Source: JBBIVP01 sp037439705 [NCBI: bacterium] (lineage in GTDB: Bacteria; JBBIVP01). Taken from it: DNA of 5,596 nt. Shown here piece by piece: positions 1,276 through 5,596 of this stretch; the first letter of the stretch is position 1; each line of letters starts with the position of its first letter. The notes below the pieces were generated by a model. The model did no database searches and was not told where the DNA came from. It was given only the letters and a program-made list of their open reading frames with translations. The position numbers were made by a program, and so were the translations under genes. The DNA lies in the NCBI GenBank assembly GCA_037439705.1, contig JBBIVP010000018.1:1-5596 (forward strand), written 5' to 3'.

Positions 1276-2420
1276 GAAAAATACACAGAAATTTTATTCT
1301 TGCCTCTGCCACTGCGTTTTTCTTCTTCACATCAATGAGTTTCTTTTTACTTCTTCCAAAATTTATTCACCAGTTAGGTGGAAAAAAAGGAGAGATAGGG
1401 CTCATAATGGGTGCTTCCGGATTTGCAAGTTGTATTCTTATACCACTTACTGGAATTATTGCAGAAAAACTGGGAAGAAAAAAAATTGCCTTAACGGGTA
1501 TTCTCGGGGCTTCCATAGTTGCCTTTTTATACATCTGCGTCAAATCCATGGATTTACCATTACTTATAACCCTCAGAATTTTCCAGGGAACATTTTTTGC
1601 ATTTTCTTTTGTTTCCTGCGCTTCCTTTGCGGGTGACTTTTCACCTCCTGGAAGAAAAAGTGAGTTTCTTGGTTATTTCGGAATTGCAATTCTTTCTCCA
1701 AATATGATTGGACCATACCTCGGAGAAAAAATTATAGAAATGAGTTTTGATTTCTTATTTATGGCTTCCGCCTTTTCCGGATGCATTGCCTCCATAATCG
1801 CCCTCTTCTTTGCAAATGACCAAATTCAGCCTGAAAAAGTTGAAAAGAAAACCAATCTTATTGAGTTCTTAAAATTTTTAAAATATCTATTGTCCCTTTC
1901 TTTCATCCTCGGATGCCTATTTTCAACCACCTTCTTTTTTCTTCCCATCTACAGTGTGGAAAAAGGAATTGAAAAAGTAGGAATTTTCTACACAGCCTAT
2001 ACCCTTACAGCAATTGTAATAAGATTTCTTCTCGGGAGTGTTTCTGAAAAAATTGAATTTCACAAAAGAACTCCTGTTTTATTCTTTCTCATCTCGGTAG
2101 CTATCATGCTAATTGCTCGTATGAACTCCATTTCATCTCTCATCCTTTCAGCAATTATTTATGGTTTTGGAGAAGGACTTGCCTATCCATCAATAAATGG
2201 AGAAGTTCTTAACAGAGCTCCTAACTATTTAATAAATGTTGCTACTGGATTTTACATCGGTGCGTTTAACCTGGGCACCCTTCTTGCTCCCATAACATTT
2301 GGCTATTTCTCACAGCTCTATTCCTTCAAAACCGCATTTTTTGGGACATCATTATTTCCACTTTTTGGAATCCTTCTTATCTTGCTTGATTATTATAAGG
2401 GACAGTTCCGAAGAATTTAA
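1272..2420 (+). CDS. Major facilitator superfamily (MFS) transporter
   Basis: This is a 382-aa, strongly hydrophobic inner-membrane protein with the layout of a 12-TM MFS carrier. The segments fall roughly at residues 8-30, 42-63, 73-91, 96-119, 131-150, 160-181, 203-227, 236-256, 267-283, 286-306, 322-345 and 352-374. Motif A is clear in the loop after TM2 (GIIAEKLGRKK, 61-71). R102-x-x-Q105-G106 in TM4 resembles motif B. In TM5, G137 to G-P-Y-L-G (147-151) resembles the antiporter motif C. A charged cytoplasmic loop (about 183-200, KVEKK) separates the two six-helix halves. Motif C-like residues suggest a drug- or metabolite:proton antiporter, but the substrate cannot be read from sequence. 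The ATG lies inside the queA stop (ATGA), which fixes the start and implies co-translation. The gene ends 12 bp from the convergent ligase gene with no strong GC-rich terminator. Confidence 0.9.
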   Translation: MRKIHRNFILASATAFFFFTSMSFFLLLPKFIHQLGGKKGEIGLIMGASGFASCILIPLTGIIAEKLGRKKIALTGILGASIVAFLYICVKSMDLPLLITLRIFQGTFFAFSFVSCASFAGDFSPPGRKSEFLGYFGIAILSPNMIGPYLGEKIIEMSFDFLFMASAFSGCIASIIALFFANDQIQPEKVEKKTNLIEFLKFLKYLLSLSFILGCLFSTTFFFLPIYSVEKGIEKVGIFYTAYTLTAIVIRFLLGSVSEKIEFHKRTPVLFFLISVAIMLIARMNSISSLILSAIIYGFGEGLAYPSINGEVLNRAPNYLINVATGFYIGAFNLGTLLAPITFGYFSQLYSFKTAFFGTSLFPLFGILLILLDYYKGQFRRI

Positions 2421-4070: not shown

Positions 4071-4076
4071 CTCCTG

Positions 4077-4080
4077 CCTC
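4077..4080 (-). promoter_or_regulatory. Ribosome binding site of the acyl-CoA ligase gene
   Basis: Read on the minus strand, the ten bases before the ATG are GAGGCAGGAG. The GAGG at 4080-4077 has a six-base spacer to the start. A second AGGAG directly abuts the ATG and is too close to act in the usual way. This is the clearest Shine-Dalgarno in the window and fixes the ligase start at 4070. Confidence 0.65.
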
Positions 4081-4105
4081 GTTTTTTTGTAGTATTTTAC
4101 ATCAA

Positions 4106-4114
4106 ATTATACCA
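4106..4114 (-). promoter_or_regulatory. Extended -10 promoter (TGGTATAAT) for the acyl-CoA ligase gene
   Basis: On the minus strand the sequence TGG-TATAAT gives a perfect sigma-70-type -10 hexamer (4111-4106) preceded by the TGn extension (4114-4112). No good TTGACA-like -35 sits 16-18 bases upstream, which is typical when the extended -10 carries recognition. A transcript would start near 4099-4100, leaving a leader of about 30 bases before the ligase ATG. This is a sequence match only. Confidence 0.55.
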
Positions 4115-4138
4115 AATAACAAGAGATAATAAATCATC

Positions 4139-4157
4139 ATGTATAAGTTATATACAT
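4139..4157. repeat. 7-bp inverted repeat upstream of the ligase promoter (candidate operator)
   Basis: ATGTATA (4139-4145) and TATACAT (4151-4157) form a perfect inverted repeat around AGTTA. The centre (4148) lies about 48-49 bp upstream of the predicted ligase start site, a position typical of an activator dimer site rather than a repressor overlapping the -10. No regulator gene is in the window. AT-rich DNA produces such repeats fairly easily, so this is a candidate only. Confidence 0.35.
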
Positions 4158-4320
4158 ATGCGACATTTTATGAGTTTGAATGAGAAAATTTAAGGGGCTT
4201 TTTAGACCAAGGGATTTGTTTCATTCCCCTCTCACTCTTTAATCTCGCACACATCTTAACTTTTCTCCCCACCATCAACAGCTATACCATTCCAGAAATT
4301 TTGCCAAATCAAAACATAAA

Positions 4321-4893
4321 TCAAACAGCTATTCTTGCGAGGTCAATGAGGAGCTTTGTGATTGTGAGAGACCTGTTGGCATTCGCTCTTATCTCACCAC
4401 AGGCTGTATCAACCCTCTCATAAAGAGAAACAGTCTTCTCTGGAAAAATTTTAGATTTGACGAGCCAGTGTTTGAACAATTCAAGAAGGTCAATTATCTG
4501 TTCTCTTTTGCCCACAAGGGCATCGGAAAGTTCCAGAACCCTTTTTATGGAGGTAACTTTAACCATCTGATAAATTTCTTCAAAAATGCTTATATCTTTT
4601 GAAAATTCTTTCATAAGGGAGATTCCAGCACCAGGGCTCCCGTCGGCAAGCTTTATAAAAATTTCCTCTTTTGGAATTCCCTCCAGTTCAAAAACCTGCG
4701 CAACTTCATCATCAGTTAAAAGCCCAAAATAAATGTGTTTACACCTTGACCTGATTGTAGGAAGGATTCTTCTTATACTGCTCGTAATCAGTATAATGAA
4801 GACTCCGGGAGGAGGTTCTTCAATTGTCTTCAAAAGCATCTTCGAACTTTTTACAGTAAGAATTTCTCCATCATCAAATATTACAAATCTCAT
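4321..4893 (-). CDS. holB: DNA polymerase III delta' subunit, C-terminal part (downstream of in-frame stop)
   Basis: This holds the second part of the clamp-loader delta' subunit, 190 codons if begun at the ATG at 4893. Counted in the full frame from 5208 (M = 106), it opens with the Walker B-type strand VIFDDGE (109-115). It continues with LLKTIEEPPPG (125-135), the FIILITSS sensor-like strand and TIRSRC (151-156), the SRC motif of clamp-loader subunits. The helical C-terminal collar ends with ANANRSLTITKLLIDL, resembling the usual delta' tail. Coding sense extends upstream of this ATG through PYTGD to the TAA at 4911-4909, in the same frame as the N-terminal part, so the ATG is probably an internal Met of one ancestral gene. 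A GGAG (4899-4896) is only two bases from the ATG, so re-initiation 15 nt after the stop is conceivable but not well supported. Confidence 0.85.
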   Translation of the reverse strand: MRFVIFDDGEILTVKSSKMLLKTIEEPPPGVFIILITSSIRRILPTIRSRCKHIYFGLLTDDEVAQVFELEGIPKEEIFIKLADGSPGAGISLMKEFSKDISIFEEIYQMVKVTSIKRVLELSDALVGKREQIIDLLELFKHWLVKSKIFPEKTVSLYERVDTACGEIRANANRSLTITKLLIDLARIAV

Positions 4894-4908
4894 ATCTCCA
4901 GTATAAGG

Positions 4909-5208
4909 TTAGAATTGAAGTTCTTCAAGAACCTCCTTCAACCTTTCCCTTTTTATTGAAATTCCTTCCGGCACAACTTCTATTATTGATGGATGATTCT
5001 CCTTAATTGCTCTCCTGCAGTTATCACAGGAAAAACATGGTTCCAAAACCTCTCCCCTTTCACATATCTGGGATATGGCAAAAATTTTCGCAGCCCTTTT
5101 CTTTCCCACACCTGCTGGACCGGCAAATATAAAAGCGTCAGCGGTTTTGGTTTTTTTCATAAATGATTTTAGAAGGGAAACAGCATTTTTATGCCCTACC
5201 AGCTTCAT
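4909..5208 (-). CDS. holB: DNA polymerase III delta' subunit, N-terminal part (ends at premature in-frame TAA)
   Basis: Delta' is the stator subunit of the bacterial clamp loader, working with delta and tau/gamma to load the beta clamp. This 99-codon part carries the AAA+ Walker A, FAGPAGVGKK (28-37; Lys37 takes the place of the usual Thr/Ser). It also has the four-Cys zinc-type module C49-x8-C58-x2-C61-x2-C64 followed by HPS, the family's Cys cluster before HPD. The end SIKRERLKEVLEELQF matches the usual SIxxIRxLxxxL segment that leads into Walker B. There the frame meets TAA (4911-4909), and the expected continuation follows in the same frame. Together the pieces span 294 sense codons, a plausible delta' length. 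The start ATG overlaps the tmk 3' end by 20 bp, so the genes are co-transcribed; AAAGAG ahead of it is a weak ribosome site. Confidence 0.88.
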   Translation of the reverse strand: MKLVGHKNAVSLLKSFMKKTKTADAFIFAGPAGVGKKRAAKIFAISQICERGEVLEPCFSCDNCRRAIKENHPSIIEVVPEGISIKRERLKEVLEELQF

Positions 5209-5596
5209 ATTTTCTCTTTATGGCTCTTATGGTGCTCTGATACAAAATCTCTGAAATTTCTTCAATCTTCATCGTTCCATTTATTATTTCCATTCTGAAA
5301 CACTTCTCTCTTGCAATTTTAAGATACCCATCTCTTACCCTTCTATGAAAATCAAGTGGAAGGGATTCAAACCTGTCAAAACCCTTTACCCTTTTTAGAC
5401 CTAACTCAGGCGGAATGTCAATCAAAAAGGCAATATCTGGAAAAAAGTTCCCGACTATAAAAAGAGAAAAATTCTTAACTTCAGAAATCGGTAAACCCCT
5501 TCCATATCCCTGATAAGCGATGGTGGAATGAACATATCTGTCAGCAACAACAATTTTTCCTTCATCAAGGGAGGGTTTGATTATTTCCTCTATAAT
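5189..5596 (-). CDS. tmk: Thymidylate kinase, C-terminal two-thirds (5' partial)
   Basis: Thymidylate kinase phosphorylates dTMP to dTDP with ATP, an essential cytosolic step toward dTTP. The frame stays open from the right edge, giving 135 visible codons; about 70 N-terminal residues, including the P-loop, lie outside. Visible signatures are VVADRYVHSTIAYQGYGRG (the DRY...S..AYQG nucleotide-site block), then FPDIAFLIDIPPELGLKRV and the LID-region GFDRFE. After these come FHRRVRDGYLKIA and a C-terminal helix, all in family order. A TTG at 5425 could be taken as a start, but coding similarity continues well upstream of it. The 20-bp overlap with holB reproduces the common bacterial tmk-holB arrangement and implies coupled expression of nucleotide supply and clamp loader. 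Confidence 0.95.
   Translation of the reverse strand: MIEEIIKPSLDEGKIVVADRYVHSTIAYQGYGRGLPISEVKNFSLFIVGNFFPDIAFLIDIPPELGLKRVKGFDRFESLPLDFHRRVRDGYLKIAREKCFRMEIINGTMKIEEISEILYQSTIRAIKRKYEAGRA

Follow-up and report, generated by a model that had tools for sequence, protein, structure and literature searches.

A 5,596-nucleotide stretch of contig JBBIVP010000018.1 (the window) carries holB, the gene for the delta' subunit of DNA polymerase III, with an in-frame TAA at codon 100 (4911-4909, minus strand). We think it probable that the gene is ordinary and of full length, and that the contig consensus has a single wrong base there. A sequence-only reading had reported a TAA between LEELQF and PYTGD-MRFVIFDD with the frame kept, and the minus-strand translation agreed: from 5208 to 4321 it gives 99 residues ending in LEELQF, then TAA, PYTGD (4908-4894), MRFVIFDDGE and the rest up to TGA at 4323-4321, and the reading frame is unchanged across the TAA. 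This is the sole internal stop of the frame when both sides are checked, so that the open frame 5208-4321 also upheld the claim of no second stop on either flank. The holB lesion is one substitution within an otherwise constrained gene, and a substitution at a conserved basic site, with no indel and no decay, is the pattern to be expected if the consensus is in error or if a nonsense allele has arisen very recently. The coordinates of the features are listed in Table 1.

Table 1 Features of the holB region in the window
Feature	Position	Strand	Remarks
holB frame (DNA polymerase III delta' subunit)	4324..5208	-	295 codons, one internal stop; TGA 4323-4321; PF13177, TIGR00678
N-terminal piece, 99 aa	4912..5208	-	Walker A GPAGVGK and four-Cys module
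In-frame TAA, codon 100	4909..4911	-	homologue column K25 R13 Q2 A1 T1
C-terminal piece, 195 codons	4324..4908	-	Walker B-like VIFDDGE, TIRSRC motif, C-terminal domain
ORF from internal ATG, 190 aa	4321..4893	-	start that re-initiation would use
tmk (thymidylate kinase), 3' part	5189..5596	-	PF02223 79.4 bits; TAA end; overlaps holB start

HolB is a clamp-loader subunit in E. coli and B. subtilis, according to the accessible part of a review (PMC13220808). In the window, PF13177 (gathering score 27) matched the N-terminal piece with 65.5 bits (profile positions 2-94) and the C-terminal piece with 64 bits (97-157), and a single match of 143.5 bits was obtained when X was placed at the stop. The best NCBIfam match was TIGR00678 (holB) with 163.2 bits, below its curated cut-off of 180.6, and dnaX_nterm followed with 135.2. 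When solved structures were compared by sequence, gamma/tau chains scored above delta' (81.9 bits versus 56.2 bits for 1a5t). The frame has 295 codons, versus at least 415 aa for the DnaX frames in the homologue set described below, and its ATG (5208) falls inside the 3' end of tmk, directly behind which the gene lies. Pfam, the family-model ranking, length and the tmk neighbour together point to a divergent delta', and the holB identity proposed earlier was supported by the joined PF13177 match and the top NCBIfam rank, though the score stays under the TIGR00678 cut-off. The gene resembles known holB genes (PF13177, TIGR00678) in length, Walker A, the four-Cys module and the SRC motif, and shares the tmk neighbour with some known delta' loci, but it is unlike them in its in-frame TAA and its sub-threshold TIGR00678 score. 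That 5208-4321 is a chance ORF was ruled out by the Pfam matches and the codon signal.

A coding signal model trained on the four other genes of the window gave in-frame codon likelihoods of 0.394 versus 0.388 bits per codon on the two sides of the stop, and -0.163 to 0.024 bits per codon in the other frames. Among 42 delta' homologues, the Walker A glycines 30, 33 and 35 are common to all, Cys 49, 58, 61 and 64 are each aligned with Cys in all, and in the T-x-x-S-R-C stretch T151, S154 and R155 are kept in all and C156 in 41. The colinear Pfam matches, the conserved motifs and the equal codon signal bear out the earlier view that both flanks are intact, and no second lesion was seen on either side of codon 100.

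The homologue set was drawn from 95 loci, 65 of which had a tblastn match to delta', the 30 without one being QueA loci. Of the 65, 23 whose frames were cut or had the length of DnaX (415 to 637 aa) were excluded, leaving the 42; no frame among the 65 delta'/DnaX loci is shorter than 250 aa, and therefore none was excluded for truncation by a stop. The loci are the best-scoring ones of the searches, a sample biased towards good matches; the homologues with a listed identity are about 26-37% identical to the window delta', and the frames in L060 and L086 extend past the end of their locus. Opposite the stop, the homologues have Lys (25), Arg (13), Gln (2), Ala (1) or Thr (1), a column that ranks sixth most basic among those aligned to the window protein, and neither a stop nor a gap was found there in any of these 42, all distant, homologues. 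The columns from -6 to +7 around the stop are gapless save for one row with a gap at +4, and the residue after codon 100 is Pro in 32/42. The stop therefore occupies a conserved position, and the suggestion that a Lys would fit codon 100 held good, with Lys or Arg in 38/42. A frameshift or indel at codon 100 was ruled out by the gapless alignment together with the colinear PF13177 profile coordinates.

Relatives of the window delta' were sought with the delta' query (P0001) in 1424 genome look-ups, repeats included, covering whole genomes of the phyla to which the QueA loci led. A match was listed in 19/19, 53/54 and 18/19 genomes at an E limit of 1e-3, in 37/384 at 1e-30, in 0/147, 0/74, 47/249, 27/198 and 1/2 at 1e-31, in 23/277 at 1e-34 and in 1/1 at 1e-36; under the strict E limits, the own holB of most genomes is absent from the listing. 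Among the matches listed, delta' and DnaX rows show 23-40% identity, the top-scoring row having 35% over residues 2-291 (G763, L074) and the most identical one 40% over 3-201 (G839), with no listed relative above 40%. Scans of genome_contigs and viral_contigs with a delta' protein pattern found no relative, and nothing in the plasmid or phage collections was matched in near-mode searches. An internal-stop flag was attached to just one of the listed delta'/DnaX rows, G016 ('1 TAA'), which was rejected as a relative sharing the stop, its ORF (L037, 276 aa) showing that the TAA is the normal gene end. The short delta' frames in G048, G049, G079 and G089 were rejected as truncated genes, since in each case the contig stops inside the match or shortly beyond it. 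The relatives examined are all distant, so that the absence of the stop is shown for distant kin only, and close kin may share it.

The QueA search returned 30 loci, the best of them 49% identical over residues 4-335 (Caldisericaceae, L001); a fragment (L028) reaches 53% over 160-335, where L001 has 58%, and no QueA match was found in 285 genomes at 1e-98. In the collections searched the contig's lineage has no close relative, on the best full-length QueA and on the delta'/DnaX rows alike.

For the lone stop, a consensus error is the most likely explanation, with a recent nonsense allele next. Under the consensus error, codon 100, where most relatives have a basic residue, would read TAA through a single erroneous base, one that probably arose in sequencing or assembly rather than as a change present in the cells. 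holB, and hence delta', is expected to be essential; we infer the error because a lineage lacking this clamp-loader subunit should not persist. Against it, queA, the MFS transporter gene, the ligase gene and the part of tmk are all open without breaks, and the contig is therefore not generally poor. Few random base errors create stops, which also counts against an error, though the finding was itself selected for a stop. It is rather unlikely, but the next candidate to consider, that the mutation is real and recent in some or all of the sampled cells, a rare or dying allele caught before further decay, with delta' function lost or kept only through low background suppression. A very young mutation would be expected to look like this, one base changed at a conserved site and no further damage seen on either side, but an allele of this kind in an essential gene should be swiftly lost, and 0/42 homologues carry one. 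It is improbable that an intact holB lies elsewhere in the genome and the window copy is a young pseudogene. A second, divergent HolB-like protein is described for some marine bacteria, and one besides the normal protein in many marine single-cell genomes, in the accessible part of one report (PMC12153180). The window holB, however, sits directly behind tmk and overlaps it, hence looks like the resident copy, and shows no further decay; tmk adjoins the delta' gene in 5/58 loci (L031, L033 and L056-L058), a count in which 28 of the 58 (L031-L058) have a delta' or DnaX match and the flanks are short.

We regard it as very improbable that holB works despite the stop, whether by UAA readthrough or as a two-part delta', re-initiated at the ATG 15 nt downstream, whose putative halves would assemble in the clamp loader; that the stop is real and fixed, with delta' made as two chains (residues 1-99 and a second one starting at Met 105 or 106) or the UAA read through, is less probable still. 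Both halves look constrained, and the internal ATG (4893) is in frame with a GGAG two bases upstream, its Shine-Dalgarno duplex (-6.4 kcal/mol) being stronger than that at holB's own start (-2.9). However, 4/25 other in-frame internal ATGs in window genes outscore this duplex, and the initiation context of ATG 4893 is therefore unremarkable; its 2-nt spacer is also shorter than the usual Shine-Dalgarno spacer of 5-9. In a single-sequence structure prediction, a poor model (mean pLDDT 41, pTM 0.27), the break comes after a helix (87-98) and before a strand (107-110), as might suit a split protein. Two promoter-like matches were found, fewer than the 4.1 that shuffles give, and one of them (4928-4900) covers the stop site. 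As for readthrough, no Rfam element was matched in the window, the three stretches around the stop that were folded for a stimulatory RNA structure did not outdo shuffled sequences (z 0.15, 0.32, 2.32), and the stop is absent from all 42 distant relatives. A reassignment of UAA was rejected: TAA terminates the MFS transporter (2418-2420, plus strand), the ligase (2435-2433, minus strand) and tmk (5191-5189, minus strand), which bears out the earlier statement that UAA keeps its stop meaning here. We know of no case of single-site UAA recoding in bacteria; none is named in the titles or abstract openings of the papers listed by the literature searches, in which no stop inside holB is described either. 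Programmed recoding does occur in the clamp-loader complex, in the gamma/tau frameshift of DnaX (PMC13220808, in the part accessible). DnaX and the window holB both encode clamp-loader subunits and early termination gives a shorter product in each, but DnaX relies on a ribosomal frameshift, whereas holB keeps its frame, no recoding signal was observed around its stop, and it is the AAA+ domain itself that is interrupted. The options first listed from the sequence were a sound set; the consensus error and the fresh nonsense allele come first among them, while readthrough and a two-polypeptide delta' found little positive support.

A stop fixed in the lineage would mean a split core replication subunit or site-specific recoding of UAA, both unexpected. 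The case also calls for caution: where one contig shows a single in-frame stop at a conserved site and the core gene is otherwise intact, the stop is for the time being best taken for an error or a transient allele.

Other features of the window were noted as well. No tRNA was found in it, and PADLOC returned nothing for four proteins. The acyl-CoA ligase gene has an AGGAG (4071-4075) that abuts its ATG (4070), a duplex of -7.5 kcal/mol with an unusually short spacer, and its true start may be other than ATG 4070. The about 250 bases between the ligase gene and holB (4071-4320) hold no ORF of at least 50 aa and no repeats. At the other end of the window, an 85-residue fragment without a Pfam match (2-259) lies directly before queA (256-1275); it presumably resembles the end of a SpoIID/LytB-type protein, and a similar sequence also precedes queA in 10/30 QueA loci.
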